The translations under genes were made by a program, and so were the position numbers. This document shows positions 7,095 through 34,817 of a stretch of 35,446 nucleotides of DNA, in pieces. The number at the start of each line of letters is the position of its first letter. Position 1 is the first letter of the stretch. Origin of the DNA: a virus; IMG/VR virus record IMGVR_UViG_3300017922_000001, positions 1 through 35,446 of that record; one strand, 5' to 3'. The notes below the pieces were generated by a model. It searched no databases and was not told the DNA's origin. It saw only the letters and a program-made list of their open reading frames with translations.

Positions 7095-7427
7095 ATGGAT
7101 TTTGACATAGGAAATTTTATCGCAGGGCTAACGTTACTCGAGCTAGTGGTTGCTTTAATCGTTATTGAAGTTTTAGAGGTGGTATCGGGCCTTTTGAGGG
7201 CTTGGAAAAATAATATTCCTATTAAAGGAGCTATAACGAGAGAAAGCATAGTTAAAAAATTCGAGGGCTGGAAGTATATATTTGGCCTCATGGCTATATT
7301 TATTTATGTGGGCCAGCTCGAATTGGCAAAGGCGCTGCTCGGATTTGTATTATTGCCGGAGATAGTGTCTTTTGTAGAAAACTTTAAGAAAAGTATTACC
7401 GGAGAGGTGGAAAAATGGCAAGTTTAA
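7095..7427 (+). CDS. Holin
   Basis: A 110-residue protein with hydrophobic segments at about residues 8-35 (FIAGLTLLELVVALIVIEVLEVVSGLL) and 62-92 (YIFGLMAIFIYVG and ALLGFVLLPEIVSF). These flank a polar loop with WKNNIPIKG, and a charged tail follows. This fits the phage holin 4/toxin-secretion holin group of Gram-positive phages, which opens the membrane to let the lysin act. The AAGGAGGTG ribosome site is strong, and the 3' end overlaps the lysin gene by 13 bases, so the two are translationally coupled. Confidence 0.75.
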   Translation: MDFDIGNFIAGLTLLELVVALIVIEVLEVVSGLLRAWKNNIPIKGAITRESIVKKFEGWKYIFGLMAIFIYVGQLELAKALLGFVLLPEIVSFVENFKKSITGEVEKWQV

Positions 7428-8830
7428 CATACGCAGAATGGGTGGAAAAAATGAAGCAAGAAACACACAACGAACACAATATTGCAGAATGGCACCGGGC
7501 CGGGTATTTGGGGCAAGGTGTTAAAGTCTTAAATCTCGAGGGCTATTCGGGCCACGGCAAAACAACTTTTGATAATATAGTTAGAACTGCGCCGGAGGCA
7601 AAAGTCGATTGGTGTCAAATAGGATTCGGCTTAAAGGCCGATAAGCTCTATCATTTTAACGCGGAAACTGCGGACCGGACCTTCACACTGGAAGACCTCG
7701 AGGATTTTGCGGACTTTTTAAAAGGTTATGATATTATAACTGTTAGCAAATCCAGCAGCTACGGCCCGGAACTCGAAGAAGTATTTTCGGAAAGCGGAGC
7801 GATTTTGATTTCAAGTGCCGGAAATGATGATTTTGACGGAGTAACGGGCCGCTTTAAGGATATAGGCTTTTCAATCGGGGCTGTTGAAATGAGGGCCGGA
7901 GGCGTCCACCGCGAAAGCTATTCAGCGGTTGGAGAGAAACTCGACTTTGTTTGCTTTCATTATGAGCGCGAGGGAACGAGTTTTAGCGCGCCGACATTTG
8001 CGGGTATTGACGCAATAGTTTTAAGCAAATATCCGACAGTGAACAAATACGAAATGTATGAGGTTATGAAGTCAATTTGTGTGGACCTCGGAGAACAAGG
8101 ATTTGACGAGCATTTCGGGCACGGTTTGCCGGTATTGCCGGAGGACGTAAAAATTGAATTACTAGAAAAAGAGCCGGAGCCGCAGCCCGAGCCTGAGAAA
8201 GTTAAACAATGGACTTGCAGGATTTTACATAACAGCAGCAACTTTGATTGGCAGCCCGGAGACACAATCAAAAAGGGCGAAAAGGTTTGCAGAATGGGCT
8301 CAACGGGTACGGATTTAATTCACGCTCATATTGACGCAGTTAAAGGCTTGGTTAAACAGTATAGTTTAATGGATATTGAGAGAGACTTATATATGCCGTT
8401 AAAGGCAAAAATAGAGTCATTGATAGTATGGGGCCTATTTCAGTACAAACCCGTAATAACATGCGAATATTTGTGTGAAAACTACATGCAGGACCAAAAG
8501 GTCAGTTATAATCACTGGGCTATTGACGTGGTACCTGAGAATAGAAAAATCACGGCCGAGAATTACGACATATATTGGCCGCTAGACACACCGGCGGTAG
8601 TAATGAATGTGGGAACATATTCAGACGGTACAAAATATATAGTGTTAGGAGTTGACGAAACAATGGAATATAAAGACGTTCCGAAAGATAAATGGTATTA
8701 TGAAGAAGTTGATTGGGTATCAAACGAAGGTTTAATGACAGGATATAAAGACGGAACTTTCAGGCCTGATGAGCCTATAACTCGGGCTGAGGTAGCTCAG
8801 ATTTTATACAACTTGAAACATCAGCAATAA
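7415..8830 (+). CDS. Modular lysin: subtilisin-like (S8) + M23-like + SLH domain
   Basis: A 471-residue protein. Residues about 30-245 are S8-like: SAGN at 134-137 (oxyanion Asn), GTSFSAP at 187-193 (Ser189) and GHG at 46-48 (His47). The usual Asp position reads LNLEG, suggesting Glu42, and the Asp-His spacing is very short. A Pro/Glu linker (about 252-262) follows. Residues 268-415 carry M23 peptidase signatures in reversed order: GDTIKKGEKVCRMGSTG with HAHID (303-307) first, NHWAIDVVP (366-374) second. Residues about 418-466 are an SLH repeat (DVPKDKWYYEEVDW...GYKDGTFRPDEPITRAEVAQILY) that would anchor the enzyme to secondary wall polymer. No signal peptide is seen, so export through the holin is expected. 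Whether each catalytic module is active is unknown. Confidence 0.8.
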   Translation: MASLTYAEWVEKMKQETHNEHNIAEWHRAGYLGQGVKVLNLEGYSGHGKTTFDNIVRTAPEAKVDWCQIGFGLKADKLYHFNAETADRTFTLEDLEDFADFLKGYDIITVSKSSSYGPELEEVFSESGAILISSAGNDDFDGVTGRFKDIGFSIGAVEMRAGGVHRESYSAVGEKLDFVCFHYEREGTSFSAPTFAGIDAIVLSKYPTVNKYEMYEVMKSICVDLGEQGFDEHFGHGLPVLPEDVKIELLEKEPEPQPEPEKVKQWTCRILHNSSNFDWQPGDTIKKGEKVCRMGSTGTDLIHAHIDAVKGLVKQYSLMDIERDLYMPLKAKIESLIVWGLFQYKPVITCEYLCENYMQDQKVSYNHWAIDVVPENRKITAENYDIYWPLDTPAVVMNVGTYSDGTKYIVLGVDETMEYKDVPKDKWYYEEVDWVSNEGLMTGYKDGTFRPDEPITRAEVAQILYNLKHQQ

Positions 8831-15221: not shown

Positions 15222-15250
15222 TTTACAAACTGTAAAAGATATGTTATACT
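15222..15250 (+). promoter_or_regulatory. Early promoter P4 with operator half-site
   Basis: TTTACA-17 bases-TATACT. The spacer/-10 junction carries ATATGTTA, the right half of the dyad found at P1 and P3; the left half is degenerate (TAAAAG). It drives the XRE regulator and primase operon. A weaker site upstream of a regulator gene fits autoregulation. Confidence 0.82.
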
Positions 15251-15288: not shown

Positions 15289-15540
15289 ATGAGAAAAGCA
15301 AGCAAGAAAAATAAAGAAATGATGATGAATCCTATAAAACAATTAAGAGTAGCAAGAAAAATCTCGATGAGAGATTTAGCCGACCAAATAGATACGACAT
15401 CCCAAGCTATATACCATTGGGAACACGGTAGCAAACCAACCTATGACAAGCTTTTAGCAATAGCAAAAGTTTTTAGCTGTGACGTAGAAGAGCTTTCGGA
15501 GGATTTAATAAGATGGAATGAATTAAGAAAGGAGGATTAA
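15289..15540 (+). CDS. XRE-family HTH regulator
   Basis: 83 residues after a basic N-terminal extension (RKASKKNKEMMMN). The HTH reads IKQLRVARKISMRDLADQID, then TTSQAIYHWEHGSKPTYDKLLAIAKVF, the classic Cro/CI-type helix-turn-helix with W-E-x-G-x-x-P after the recognition helix. It is the only clear sequence-specific regulator in the genome, so it is the best candidate for binding the dyad at the four early promoters. Start chosen for AAAGGAGG at 15273-15280; a later ATG cluster (MMMNP) is possible. There is no second regulator facing it, so it is not a lambda-type switch. Confidence 0.88.
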   Translation: MRKASKKNKEMMMNPIKQLRVARKISMRDLADQIDTTSQAIYHWEHGSKPTYDKLLAIAKVFSCDVEELSEDLIRWNELRKED

Positions 15541-17101: not shown

Positions 17102-18805
17102 ATGAAGAAATTTATTGAAAATTTATATGAGAACATTCCGGAAGACAAATATTTTCTCATATGGTTATTTGACGGCAGTAAAACGAAAACATCCCACTGG
17201 TTTAAGAGCCCTCAAAAAGCAGTCGAATTAATAGACGAGTACCGAAAGGATAACATTAATATCTACTGTGGAGGTGGATTGAGCGGCAAAGATTACGGCC
17301 GAGGGCGTAGGTGCCGACAAAACGAAATACAAGGTTTAATAGGCCTTTATGCCGATGTGGATATCAAAGACGACGAGGCCCACAGCAAGGCAAACCTACC
17401 TAAAAATGTCAGCGAGGCAATGAGCATATTGAAGACTTTACCTCATTCGCCAACGGTAGTCGTTCACTCAGGGCACGGGTTGCAAGCCTGGTGGCTATTC
17501 AAAGAGCCTTGGATATTTGAAGATGAGGACGAAAGACGCAGTGCTGAGAATTTGAGTAAAAGGTTGAACTACTTTCTAAAAGGTAGCGCGAAAAGAATAG
17601 GCAAAAAAAGTGGAAACCCTAAGGGTTGGGATGTCGACAGCGTGTATAATTTAGACCGAGTTTTAAGAGTGCCGGGAACTATAAATGCAAAAGGAACGCC
17701 GGTACCGGTAAAAGTTATCGATAGTGACTATATGAAGAGATACGCAGTAAGCGACTTTGAAGACCTATTACCGGCCATCGAAGATTTTGACCGTAATGAA
17801 GTAGACTACAATCAGAATATAGTTGAAGATGATTTAAAATTAGACCCGAGGGCTGAGCCACCATTCGAAAAATTTCAAGCCCTACTGAGTATTGAGGATA
17901 GATTCCAAGCCAGTTGGGAAAGAACGAGGAAAGATCTTCAGGACCAATCGGCAAGTAGTTACGATTTGAGCCTTGCGAATTATTCAGCAATGGCCCAATG
18001 GACCGAGCAGGAAATTGCAAACCTAATAATTGCGTCCAGGAGAAAACACAACGACGACTTAAAACTGAGGCAAGATTACTATAAAAGGACAATCGGGATT
18101 GCAATAGCCAACGCCGAAAAATATATGGCCGACCAAAAATTGGATGAATTCAAGCAAGATGAGGTAACGGGTAACAATGATTTAATGACTAATGATAAAA
18201 GAGACAGTTTGCTCGAAATAATATCATCGGTATTTGAGATAAAAATAATACAGATAGTTAAATACATGGCCGAGCCACCGACATATAAAATATTTACAGA
18301 AAATGGAGACGTTAACGTCGGTACAGTGGAGAACTTGATACAGCAAGGGAAACTCAGGAATCATTTAGCAAGTACGACCGGGAAATATTTACCAAGAATA
18401 AAGCGCGACCAATGGGATAATATTGCGCAGTCACTATTGAGGGCATGTGTGGAAATAGAATTGGGCCAGGAGGCCACGGAGAAAGGTCAAACGAGAATTT
18501 GGATAAATGACTATATCGACGAAAACTATCTTTTCACACTAACAGATAAACATAATGAAGAAGAAGTTGACGAAATGCTCGTCAGAAAGTCACCATTTGA
18601 ATATGAAAATAAAGTACACCTATTCCTACAAAATCTAAGGAAATGGTTAAAAGTAAACGCGATGGAAAGTATCAGTAATAAAAAGTTGGCAAGGCGCATA
18701 AAGGAAATTGGAGCCGAGTCAAAACAAATAAATATAACAACATCCAACGGTCGAACGACCAGGAATGTATGGGTACTTAAAAGAGAAGATTATAACCTAG
18801 ATTAG
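17102..18805 (+). CDS. Archaeo-eukaryotic-type primase (RepB-like), 567 aa
   Basis: The N-terminal domain carries the AEP catalytic pattern: GLYADVDIKDD (Asp85-x-Asp87, metal ligands), HSGHGLQAWW (His125 in the s-H-s position) and DRVLRVPGTINAK. The enzyme would make primers for phage replication. After about residue 230 the chain is mainly helical (LDPRAEPPFEKFQALLS...), with a C-terminal winged-helix-like region (MESISNKKLARRIKEIGAES... RTTRNVWVLKRED). There is no fused P-loop helicase domain, so unwinding must come from the neighbouring SNF2 and UvrD-like proteins or the host. It is followed 11 bases later by a 17-codon leader ORF and then the UvrD-like gene. Confidence 0.85.
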   Translation: MKKFIENLYENIPEDKYFLIWLFDGSKTKTSHWFKSPQKAVELIDEYRKDNINIYCGGGLSGKDYGRGRRCRQNEIQGLIGLYADVDIKDDEAHSKANLPKNVSEAMSILKTLPHSPTVVVHSGHGLQAWWLFKEPWIFEDEDERRSAENLSKRLNYFLKGSAKRIGKKSGNPKGWDVDSVYNLDRVLRVPGTINAKGTPVPVKVIDSDYMKRYAVSDFEDLLPAIEDFDRNEVDYNQNIVEDDLKLDPRAEPPFEKFQALLSIEDRFQASWERTRKDLQDQSASSYDLSLANYSAMAQWTEQEIANLIIASRRKHNDDLKLRQDYYKRTIGIAIANAEKYMADQKLDEFKQDEVTGNNDLMTNDKRDSLLEIISSVFEIKIIQIVKYMAEPPTYKIFTENGDVNVGTVENLIQQGKLRNHLASTTGKYLPRIKRDQWDNIAQSLLRACVEIELGQEATEKGQTRIWINDYIDENYLFTLTDKHNEEEVDEMLVRKSPFEYENKVHLFLQNLRKWLKVNAMESISNKKLARRIKEIGAESKQINITTSNGRTTRNVWVLKREDYNLD

Positions 18806-18816
18806 GAGGCAAATAA

Positions 18817-18870
18817 ATGAAGATAATAAGTTTAACAAAGGAGGTGGTTCGAAATGAATACCATAAATGA
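18817..18870 (+). CDS. 17-codon ORF leading into the UvrD-like gene
   Basis: It has an ideal AGGAGG at 18804-18809 and encodes MKIISLTKEVVRNEYHK. Its TGA overlaps ATG 18867 (ATGA), which is in the frame of the helicase body. Within it lies a second strong Shine-Dalgarno (AAAGGAGGTGG) for ATG 18854 in another frame. It may allow coupled re-initiation at 18867, or be incidental. Confidence 0.4.
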   Translation: MKIISLTKEVVRNEYHK

Positions 18871-20522
18871 GACTAGGGTATTCGGTTGACCCACCGGGAA
18901 CGGGAAAAACAACGTATTTAACGCGACAGATAAGCAACGCGCTAAAGAAATATAACCCGAATGATGTTATGGTAGCAAGTTTCACAAAGACGGCCGCGAC
19001 GGAATTGGCGGGCCGTAGCTCAGGAATGCGCGGACAAATTGGCACGCTGCATAGTCATTGTTATAGAGCAATAGGCCGACCGAAGGTTTTAACACCTGAG
19101 GACATAAAGGCGTTCAACAAGCAACATCCGGCTTTTAGAATAACCGGCACGACATTCAATATAAGTATAGAGGATAAAGCCGAGGTATTTGAGACAATAG
19201 ATTCAATGGGCGACTATCTACTACATGAGGTTAACGTTCTAAGGGCTAAGATGGTACCACGGAGCAAATGGAGGCGAAACCTGAGGGCTTTCGATACAGC
19301 TTGGGAAAAATTTAAAAAGGCCTATGGCATAATAGATTTTACCGACATGATAGAGCGCGCCCTTGATGTGGACGTAGCGCCAAGCAATCCAAAGGTTGGA
19401 TTTTTCGACGAGGCCCAGGATTTTACGCCACTGGAATTTGCGGTAATAAGGCAATGGGGCCAACATATGGAGCACATCGTTTTCAGTGGAGACGACGACC
19501 AATTACTATACGGATGGATTGGAGCGACGCCGTCAAGCTTGCTCGAGGGCGAGGCTAATACGAGGATTTTAAGCCAAAGCTATCGAGTGCCGAGGGCTGT
19601 CCAGGAATACGCCGAAAAATGGATAAAGCAAGTAAGTAAGAGGCAGGAAAAGGAATATAAGCCACGGGATGAGGACGGAGAACTTTTAAGAGCGCCGTTA
19701 ACACTGAGTAATCCAAACAGCTTAATAAGTAGCATTGAAAAAGACATCGAAAATGACAAAGAAGTTATGGTCCTTTGCACATGTGGATATATGTTAGATG
19801 ATTTAATCAAAGAGCTGAGACATCGAGGGATACCATTTCACAACCCGTATAGAAAAAGGAATGGCCGTTGGAATCCGATAAGACTTGGAGGCAGTTTTGG
19901 AAGTGTATCGAACTTTCTCAGGCCATGCAGTGAAGTATTCGAGGATAACAGAATGTATAACTATACAGAACTTAACGACTGGGTAAAATTCGTCTCGAGT
20001 AGTAAAGCTTTAAAGCGTGGAGCTAAAAGAGATTTGAGAAATAAAATAGATGAGATAGAGGCCCGGAAAGATGAGTTAAGAGAAAAGGACCCAACGATCT
20101 TGGAACTCGGTTGGTATAACGACGAAGTTGATATCGAATTTCTCGACAGCATATTCGAAGATTACAGTTTTTTAGATAAATCAAATGATAAAAGGGCAAT
20201 GTTGAAATGGTTTGAAAGTAATTTGCTGAGTAGCAAGAGAAAGCAGTTTGAACTACCTATCAATTTATATAAAAATAACGATATAAAAGACGGCAACCTG
20301 GATATCAAACTCAAAATCGGTACCGTTCACAGTGTGAAAGGTGGAGAGGCCGACGTCGTATATCTATTCCCGGATTTAAGTTTCTCGGCTATGAAAGAAT
20401 ATAACAAGGTAGGTCCAGGAAGAGACGGCGTAATTAGGACAATGTATGTAGGAATGACGAGGGCAAGAGAGAAGTTGGTACTATGCGACACTAACAGTAG
20501 TAACCGTGTTAGATGGGCGTAG
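18854..20522 (+). CDS. UvrD/Rep-like superfamily 1 helicase, interrupted by TGA needing a +1 shift
   Basis: The best start by ribosome-site spacing is ATG 18854, reading MNTINETRVFG and then TGA at 18887-18889. The helicase body is in the +1 frame: skipping one T gives VFG-D-PPGTGKTTYL, the Walker A motif. The RVFG before the stop is exactly what precedes PPGTGKT in this family, so both frames look coding. The body has FTKTAATELAGR (motif Ia), GFFDEAQDFTPLE (motif II), SGDDDQLLYGW (III), GTVHSVKGGEADVV (V) and MYVGMTRAREKL (VI): a 3'-5' DNA helicase. Alternative: initiation at ATG 18867 in the body frame (MRLGYSVDPPGTGKTT, 551 residues), 20 bases from the ribosome site. Programmed +1 frameshift, coupled start, or indel remain possible. 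Confidence 0.85.
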
Positions 20523-23749: not shown

Positions 23750-23770
23750 AAGCAAGGTTTTAAGAGCAGG

Positions 23771-23856
23771 GGCCGACTAAAGATATATTGTGTAATGTCT
23801 CAGAATAAAATATAGTGATGAATATTTGTTCAAATGTTGTGTCGGCCTTTGCTTTT
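23771..23856 (+). terminator. Structured terminator / possible small RNA after the early genes
   Basis: GGCCGAC (23771-23777) pairs with GTCGGCC (23841-23847) across a 63-base loop, immediately followed by TTTGCTTTT. Upstream AAAAGCAAGG (around 23749-23758) can also pair with CCTTTGCTTTT with one bulge, giving a competing or extended stem. It ends the early region. The large ordered loop is unusual for a plain terminator and might be an RNA with its own role. Confidence 0.6.
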
Positions 23857-24282
23857 AGAAAAAAAACGTTATTTATGAAAGCGTTTTCCAGGGGGGTAAA
23901 AGGGGGTTGATTATTTATCATTATTCAAAGTCGATGATGGAGGCACTGGGGCAACCGGGCTTTCAGAGGCGAAAAAAAACGTTATTTATCAGCGGTATAT
24001 AGTAAATAAATAATGAATAACGAAAAAAGTAAAAGGGGTACCTCTGGAGGTGTTTTACCCTCCAAAAACGTTATTATCATTATTTATGGTATCTTAGATA
24101 CTGGTATCACTGTAACCTAATAAATAACGAACGATATTATTTCATTATTTATGGTAATTAGGCTATTCAGGACATAGAATATTTTACAAATACCTAAAAA
24201 GTCTCGCGACATCGACAGTCTTTTCAAACCACTCACACAAAACATTAAAATAATCCCTATATATAAGAGAGATTTTGCAGGT
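23857..24282. promoter_or_regulatory. Gene-free control region 2 with repeat array
   Basis: No credible gene. At least seven copies of the 10-base word NRTTATTTAY or its complement occur between about 23868 and 24165 (for example CGTTATTTAT twice, GATTATTTAT, CATTATTTAT twice, ATAAATAACG), in both orientations. Other elements are a palindromic GTATCTTAGATAC, an inverted copy of the block at 8945-8967 (24209-24231), and AATAATCCCTATATATAAG (24249-24267), which differs by one base from 9128-9146. It may be a replication origin or an operator array for switching from early to late transcription. Confidence 0.72.
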
Positions 24283-24311
24283 TTTACATGATGTGAGATA
24301 TAAGGTATAAT
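24283..24311 (+). promoter_or_regulatory. Late promoter before the packaging genes
   Basis: TTTACA-17 bases-TATAAT, near-consensus sigma-A. It lacks the TAACATATATGTTA dyad of the early promoters, so late genes are probably controlled differently, perhaps through the repeat array just upstream. It would drive ParB-like, radical SAM, terminase and head genes. Confidence 0.78.
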
Positions 24312-24358
24312 AAACAGCAAGAAGAAGTTTATCCGAAAATATAAAAAAAGAGGTATTT

Positions 24359-34122: not shown

Positions 34123-34452
34123 ATGAGAGAATATACATTCGAAGTAAAGGATAAGACATATACGTTAAGATATGATTTCAACGCTATATGCGATATAGAA
34201 GAAGAGGCCCAACTCGGAATACCTGAGTTGATGAGTCAAAAGAGAATCGGAATGAACACGGCCAGGATTGTAATTTGGGGAGGATTGGCAAGGCAAAAAG
34301 GTACCATGACAAAACAGCAAGTCGGAGAACTCATCCAGGAATATATAAACGAGGGGAACGACTTTACAAAGTTGATGCAAGATTCGATGGAGCTCCTTGC
34401 TGAATCGATTTCCAAAGAGGAAACGAGTGTATCAACAAAAAAAAAGAAGTAG
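34123..34452 (+). CDS. Tail assembly chaperone G
   Basis: 109 residues ending STKKKK. It starts MREYTFEVKDKTYTLRYDFN and has ICDIEEEAQLGIPELM, typical of tail assembly chaperones that bind the tape measure protein. Its last codons lie on a run of nine A's that forms a slippery site for making the longer G-T product. Confidence 0.85.
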   Translation: MREYTFEVKDKTYTLRYDFNAICDIEEEAQLGIPELMSQKRIGMNTARIVIWGGLARQKGTMTKQQVGELIQEYINEGNDFTKLMQDSMELLAESISKEETSVSTKKKK

Positions 34453-34817
34453 ACGGCAAGGATGAAAGTCCTTGCTTTCTTAAAATAGCAAAGCAAGCTG
34501 AGGAAGTGGCTTATTACTTTGGTATAATGCCCGACGAGTTTTGGGGTATGATACCCAGGGAATTATATAAATATCTCGACATGCAAGTTGATAGAGACAA
34601 AACAAAGCGCGAGGCCGACCAAAGAAACACGGCTTTAATATGTGCTACAATAGCTAATTTCTCAATGACAAAACCTAAAAATAAGAAATATAAAATAGAT
34701 GATTTTATCCCTAAAGAGAAAAAGGAAATGACCGAAGAAGATATGTTAAAAGAAGTTGAAAAGATTAACAGACTTTTAGGGGGTAAAGATCTTAGGCAGG
34801 AAGAAGGTGTTAAATAA
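34123..34817 (+). CDS. Tail assembly chaperone GT by -1 ribosomal frameshift
   Basis: The -1 frame entered at the A-run is open without interruption from about 34437 to the stop at 34815-34817. It adds about 123 residues (EVDGKDESPCFLKIAKQAEE, VAYYFGIMPDEFWGMIPREL, ... RLLGGKDLRQEEGVK) to the 108 codons of G, for about 231 residues. The T part has no ribosome site of its own; GTG 34506 is only the first start codon in that frame. GT/G ratio control is a classic feature of long-tailed phages. The stop overlaps the tape-measure ATG (TAATG). Confidence 0.88.
34440..34475 (+). promoter_or_regulatory. Programmed -1 frameshift signal
   Basis: Slippery heptamer A AAA AAG (34440-34446) in register with the G frame, nine bases before a hairpin GCAAGGA-TGAAAG-TCCTTGC (34456-34475; seven perfect pairs, an extra G-T possible). 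The stop of G (TAG, 34450-34452) lies in the spacer. All parts of the standard signal are present. Confidence 0.92.

Follow-up and report, generated by a model that had tools for sequence, protein, structure and literature searches.

A candidate translational bypass element in the Walker A motif of a phage UvrD-like helicase

The helicase locus and its two reading frames

We analysed the virus record IMGVR_UViG_3300017922_000001 over its full length of 35,446 bases, referred to here as the window. The record carries a 123-nucleotide (nt) direct end repeat and is therefore regarded as a circular phage genome. It encodes a terminase, a portal-like protein, tail chaperones, a SNF2-type helicase, a primase-like protein and, adjoining the primase gene, a UvrD-like helicase. 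The subject of this study is a stop codon inside the Walker A motif of this last gene. The features of the locus are listed below, with take-off and landing codons named according to the translational bypass that is proposed further on.

17102..18805, + strand: upstream gene for a primase-like protein (567 amino acids); the same neighbour occurs in related phages
18817..18870, + strand: leader open reading frame (ORF) of 17 codons, MKIISLTKEVVRNEYHK, with the Shine-Dalgarno (SD) sequence TAGGAGG at 18803-18809; its stop overlaps ATG 18867 as ATGA
18837..18847, + strand: ribosome-binding site of the helicase, AAAGGAGGTGG; GGTGG at 18843-18847 doubles as the outer 5' arm of the predicted hairpin
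18843..18895, + strand: extended predicted hairpin of GGTGG/CCACC, TCGA/TTGA and GAATACC/GGTATTC, enclosing the take-off codon, the stop and the landing site
18854..18889, + strand: first ORF of the helicase, MNTINETRVFG, from ATG to TGA, with the first beta strand and the first Walker A Gly
18856..18883, + strand: stem-loop GAATACC (18856-18862) / GGTATTC (18877-18883) with a 14-nt loop, lying against the take-off codon
18867..18869, + strand: alternative ATG in the body frame, lacking a ribosome site of its own; restart product MRLGYSVDPPGTGKTT
18884..18886, + strand: proposed take-off codon GGT (Walker A Gly), a putative role, with its position judged against 31 relatives
18887..18890, + strand: stop TGA, then C; the extra bases are TGAC (18887-18890) or, equivalently, TTGA (18886-18889)
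18888..18890, + strand: proposed triplet for a putative landing, GAC
18891..20522, + strand: body of the UvrD-like superfamily 1 (SF1) helicase from PPGTGKTT (PF00580, phrog_1967), with DEAQD, GDDDQ, VHSVKGGEAD and YVGMTRARE intact

The frame that opens at ATG 18854 reads MNTINETRVFG and then meets TGA at 18887-18889. The +1 frame reads DPPGTGKTTYL, stays open to 20522 and holds all helicase motifs; four bases past the stop it provides PPGTGKTT and 541 more helicase codons. When the two frames are joined, they give exactly the RVFGPPGTGKTT of the family. The SF1 motifs I, Ia, II, III, V and VI then follow in order, motif I being complete only after the joining, and the body is intact in its frame and its motifs. 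The ribosome site of ATG 18854 (-17.3 kcal/mol to the anti-SD) surpasses those of all other starts among the 13 that were checked, and ATG 18867 has essentially none (-2.9 kcal/mol).

A strand of the form [K/R][V/I][F/Y]G followed by PPGTGKTT is found in a single frame at 136 of 138 homologous loci, and the other two carry a stop. Against the profile of the homologs, RVFG scores 10.8 bits (family median 8.7) and YSVD, which the other frame offers at this place, scores -7.5; a tetrapeptide that matches the score of RVFG occurs at 0.04% or less of the out-of-frame positions in this phage. With the hidden Markov model (HMM) of the family, the direct join RVFG|PPG reached 420.8 bits, the +1 product RVFG-D-PPG 413.3 and a protein starting at 18867 only 408.6. 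The profile fit of RVFG and the best score of the direct join therefore identify the window as the family sequence with exactly four bases added. In these respects the original prediction for this DNA proved accurate: the coordinates and frames, the ideal ribosome site of ATG 18854, RVFG and PPGTGKTT as the expected family sequence, and the 17-codon leader ORF that ends in ATGA on the alternative start 18867 were all found as it had described them.

A protein search of IMG/VR with the window helicase alone as query found no relative, and the window terminase retrieved one relative with 62% identity, on a contig (L091) without the helicase. A scan of genome contigs gave only one close full-length relative, in which the frame is intact.

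Stop codons in the Walker A motif of related helicases

The two homologous loci that are not read in a single frame both have an in-frame stop within the motif, L015 as GPP-TGA-P-GTGKTT and L070 as GPP-TAA-L-GAGKTT. We had drawn the verdict of a simple indel from the 136 intact homologs, and it was reversed by these two loci; the stop at the window site is probably not an isolated indel. We scanned 2.9 million viral contigs with the pattern GGN CCN CCN TRR NNN GGN NCN GGN AAR AC, which allowed a stop or TGG after GPP and left the gene, the hairpin and the next codon free. All 40 matches fell in the same UvrD-like helicase, with TAA, TAG or TGA and never with TGG. Their layout, GPP-stop-(CUN/CCN)-G(T/S/A)GKTT, is the family sequence plus 6 nt with an intact body, and the codon before the stop is CCN in all 40, whereas the window has GGT-TGA. 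One further contig, L090, has an in-frame look-alike of the motif in an unrelated DnaC-like P-loop gene (1501-2000) with many TGA codons read through; its code is likely one in which TGA encodes Gly.

From these matches, 31 non-redundant cases with enough upstream sequence were scored, and 129 stop-less homologs served as controls. The stop is UGA in 13 cases, UAA in 10 and UAG in 8, and since all three are used, it is the stop and not an amino acid that is kept. Between stop-bearing pairs of this 6-nt class the ratio of nonsynonymous to synonymous substitution rates (dN/dS) of the body is 0.04-0.18; thus, the Walker A motif and everything downstream are made and selected. The codons on the two sides of the stop, designated take-off and landing codons, are both C-Y-N in 31/31 cases. 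Their first two bases are identical in 11/31 and their third bases equal in 21/31, a value as high as which was reached in 0 of 20,000 permutations that ignore shared ancestry. If peptidyl-tRNA-Pro hopped by +6 from CCN to CYN, the product would be exactly GPPGTGKTT.

Moreover, every one of the 31 elements has a stem of 8-18 base pairs (bp) that ends at the codon before the stop or within 3 bases of it, typically as GGGGCCGAAGAT...GTCTTCGGCCCC-CCG-stop, and no comparable stem was found at the equivalent codon in the 129 stop-less homologs. The stem scores are at least 18.8 in all 31, 17 in the window and at most 15.6 in the controls. The 60 nt upstream fold with a mean z of -4.6 in the elements versus +0.26 in the controls (Mann-Whitney p 7e-17). 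Pairs are exchanged in a compensatory manner at several stem positions, including G-C/A-U/C-G next to the take-off codon, and in an alignment of 20 elements 94.6% of the cells pair, with a covariation of 0.206 compared with 0.02-0.08 for slid partners. The 3' arm of the stem is coding sequence for (V/I)FGP, while the 5' arm lies in the leader. A search of Rfam gave no match.

In 13 of the 31 stop-bearing loci, and in 0/129 controls, the gene of an HNH endonuclease (PF13392) ends 40-80 nt before the take-off codon. A comparison of L263, which has the HNH gene and the element, with the empty L046 is informative: the flanks are 96% and 95% identical, the helicase bodies have a dN/dS of 0.02, and the difference consists of the HNH region, including the 5' arm, and of TAACTG in the Walker A motif. 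On the helicase tree (FastTree, with some long branches) the stop trait changes at least 10 times, and 15 times by parsimony. As judged from this analysis, the insert in the HNH-linked relatives most likely destroys the place at which the endonuclease would cleave the conserved Walker A DNA, and the HNH enzyme would cut the empty site. We lean towards the view that these are widespread mobile micro-bypass cassettes, in which HNH enzymes target Walker A DNA, shield their own copy by a stop insert of 4-6 nt and contribute the pairing arm for a hairpin that drives ribosomes across the stop; they would be the first natural stop-hops, with the window as an HNH-less 4-nt variant.

Further selfish elements share the helicase gene in two of the stop-bearing phages. 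The helicases of L271 (823 amino acids) and L279 (961 amino acids) have intein-like inserts, located before HSVKGG and inside DEAQD. In L271, a protein of the Mom family (DNA modification) is encoded just upstream of the helicase, at 450-1052.

The window shares the gene of this class; its stop lies two codons earlier in the Walker A motif, after Gly, and is followed by C. The 7-bp stem GAATACC/GGTATTC reaches right up to the take-off codon and has a helix score of 17 (z -2.6), which is reached by 0/129 controls at the equivalent codon, by 1/129 at the Gly codon and by 0.4% of the positions in the window genome. The extended fold at 18843-18895 has -21.3 kcal/mol (z -3.3), none of 200 dinucleotide shuffles being as stable; it contains the helices TCGA/TTGA, in which the inserted TTGA takes part, and GGTGG/CCACC. 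On the helicase tree the window groups with the stop-bearing L279 and L295 (SH 97). By its sequence, the window is likely a 4-nt variant of the 6-nt class.

A candidate stop-hop and its alternatives

By comparison, a strong case for bypass can be made at the level of the class, as far as sequences can tell, and we consider it probable that the window helicase has, in its Walker A motif, an element for programmed translational bypass ('stop-hop'). Ribosomes would initiate at 18854 and translate up to GGU, where UGA would occupy the A site and the peptidyl-tRNA would lose its codon-anticodon contact. The stem-loop upstream, which borders the take-off codon with its 3' arm, may re-form at the mRNA exit and pull the mRNA, moving the ribosome forward. 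The peptidyl-tRNA would land four bases on in the window; in the common form, tRNA-Pro would leave CCN, pass the stop and land six bases on, at CCN or CUN. Translation of the window would resume at CCA and give the canonical RVFGPPGTGKTT. We infer ribosome hopping with the hairpin as its driver, and the 4-nt form may work like the 6-nt form. A single polypeptide without gap residues is predicted from the sequence, in which a 4-nt hop restores the exact Walker A sequence of the family. In the HNH-linked relatives the hop would preserve an intact protein while the insert would block HNH cleavage, as proposed for MobA, the homing endonuclease cassette of phage T4, and the gap in gene 60. The 5' stem-loop of gene 60 has been proposed to act as a forward 'motor' (PMC5009743), and an upstream hairpin was shown to stimulate +1 frameshifting in 70S translation (PMC6321510).

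Several points weigh against this proposal. A search for the exact 4-nt, Gly-codon layout found no second example, and the window is the sole case, on one contig. The landing triplet GAC matches GGT at position 1 and, by G34 wobble, at position 3, and the middle base is mismatched. The innermost stem of the window has 7 bp, compared with 8-18 bp for the class, and the fold of the 60 nt that lead up to GGT is unremarkable (z 0.03); the hairpin is significant only in its short stem or with pairing across the insert. The small HNH gene, which is frequent between primase and helicase in stop-bearing relatives, had no significant match in the window. For the class itself, the landing codon is CUN in 20/31 elements, an imperfect match to the take-off codon, the hairpin of the L271 element is weak, and shared ancestry is not corrected for in the permutation and covariation tests. 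A DNA search of cultured phages found no such element; in the cultured relatives inspected, the annotated helicase starts upstream of the Walker A motif.

A plain four-base insertion without function, by mutation or assembly, would mean that the helicase is broken or the record wrong. It would fit the single contig, the restriction of the 4-nt layout to this phage and the lacking HNH neighbour; moreover, the 123-nt end repeat suggests a short-read k-mer assembly. However, the break lies where stops recur in the relatives, with a stop followed by C and a stem abutting the preceding codon, the inserted TTGA is base-paired with the leader, the nearest kin bear stops and the body is fully intact. 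Hence, we regard a plain insertion as unlikely. The original prediction had proposed an alignment of homologs and had named close relatives with an intact frame as evidence against programming. A stop in the Walker A motif recurs in at least 40 contigs, while the exact TGAC with its 4-nt layout was found in the window only; some relatives have the intact frame and others do not, a mixture that is expected of a mobile element. Programmed recoding, which it had suggested, gains from the recurrent stops, the stems in 31/31 elements and the purifying selection downstream, and most likely the stop in the window is passed in this way rather than being a bare sequencing slip. Its prfB-like +1 mode was not supported.

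That mode would be a programmed +1 frameshift at GGU-UGA-C, possibly aided by the hairpin, which gives RVFG-D-PPGTGKTT. In prfB, AGGGGG stands three bases before the slip codon, which is CUU-U or rarely UUU-U, and the stop is read by release factor 2 (RF2) (PMC12421855). The window resembles prfB in its UGAC, in an SD-like AGGG at similar spacing, the AGG lying 12 nt before the UGA as in prfB, and in a short first ORF that is followed by a long body; upstream hairpins and SD duplexes can stimulate +1 shifts (PMC6321510, PMC12421855). Loops of the types ADPPGTGKT and GDPPGTGKT do occur in other phage helicases, and the GDPPGTGKT type in superfamily 2 helicases. However, the slip codon would be GGU (GGT-T) with no CUU-U or UUU-U, and a shift from GGU to GUU leaves a mispair in the middle position. 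The AGGG, which had been taken for a prfB-like SD, consists of the conserved Arg-Val codons of the family, AGG makes up 25% of the Arg codons, and its duplex is weak (-6.1 versus -12.6 kcal/mol). UAG, a stop of release factor 1, is used in 8/31 relatives, so that there is no preference for RF2 stops. The extra Asp of the +1 product is found in 0/129 stop-less homologs and costs 7.5 bits in the HMM score, and such a shift is unusable for the 6-nt relatives. Taken together, we find a +1 shift quite improbable. Since ADPPGTGKT and GDPPGTGKT were found in other phage helicases, we gave up the earlier view that Walker A position 1 could not be Asp.

Termination and restart would produce the body from ATG 18867 by coupling either to the leader ORF at 18817-18870, through ATGA, or to the ORF from 18854, with MRLGYSVDPPGTGK as the junction peptide. 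The ATGA overlap and the overlapping starts elsewhere in this phage are in line with a restart. Yet ATG 18867 is without a ribosome site, the first strand of the product is unrelated (YSVD, -7.5 bits) with Asp replacing the invariant Gly, and the stop-bearing relatives generally lack a start codon in the stretch from the stop to the Walker A motif, which makes a restart very unlikely. The AlphaFold predictions for the restart product and the +1 product were poor, with a predicted local distance difference test score of 59 and an uncertain P-loop. Readthrough by a suppressor tRNA or a recoded stop, for which the stop being in frame with the body in the 6-nt class would speak, is hardly credible, given that all three stops are used, that 28/31 loci terminate a long ORF with the same stop, that TGA ends six window genes, and that two extra residues would enter the Walker A motif, the window needing a change of frame besides.

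Other features, known systems and meaning

The 17-codon leader ORF at 18817-18870, with its strong ribosome site, may serve a restart or the regulation of helicase translation. Elsewhere in the genome, a tail chaperone gene (34437-34450 and 34506-34817) ends in ACA AAA AAA AAG AAG TAG, and its -1 frame runs on without a stop into a tail-T-like ORF (PF06223), the classical A_AAA_AAG type of -1 frameshift known from tail assembly chaperones. Four sigma70-like promoters (9194, 10197, 15222 and 20790) have the spacer palindrome ACATATATGT in common, with 0 expected in shuffles, and probably form one operator set; the copy at 15222 has 3 mismatches and precedes a small HTH gene (15289-15540). About 600 bases at 23750-24358 are without a convincing ORF or an Rfam match. 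At the end of the tail/lysis region, 7415-8830 encodes a protein with a subtilase part and an S-layer homology domain.

Among known systems, T4 gene 60 with MobA has a stop right after the take-off codon, an upstream stem-loop, a location in a phage replication gene, a linked homing endonuclease and a gap that protects from cleavage (PMC5009743). There, however, the gap is 50 nt, compared with 4-6 nt here, where the hairpin abuts the take-off codon, the landing codon is often CUN and not a perfect match, and the site is the Walker A motif of a UvrD-like helicase in many phages, with an HNH_3 endonuclease and no known nascent-peptide signal. The byp elements in the mitochondria of Magnusiomyces capitatus measure 27-55 nt. 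Like the elements described here, they are short bypassed inserts in coding genes, have imperfect landing matches (PMC5009743) and are regarded as mobile; in contrast, they occur in many genes and are translated by mitochondrial ribosomes. Synthetic stop-hops in E. coli, with matched codons flanking a stop, so that 9 nt yield a single residue (Weiss et al. 1987, cited in PMC5009743), have the codon-stop-codon order and the 6-nt hop of exactly the 6-nt class, but were constructs. The host gene itself is a UvrD-like phage helicase of phrog_1967 and PF00580 with all motifs, differing in the stop and insert inside motif I.

A 2016 review knew of no natural in-frame stop-hop and expected short-distance counterparts (PMC5009743), and a text search of open-access papers, later ones included, found no description of such elements. 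This suggests that stop-hopping in this form was not previously reported in nature. For a long time, T4 gene 60 has stood almost alone as a case of bypass outside mitochondria. If the proposed stop-hop is true, dozens of minimal natural cases, consisting of a hairpin, a stop and a landing codon, would open the rules of hopping to comparative testing, namely the roles of the upstream hairpin, of codon matching and of the stop. Gene finders truncate stop-bearing genes, and hence many phage helicases may be mis-annotated. Such cases, if real, would further illustrate how a selfish endonuclease can enter an important gene at its most conserved motif and still not destroy that gene.
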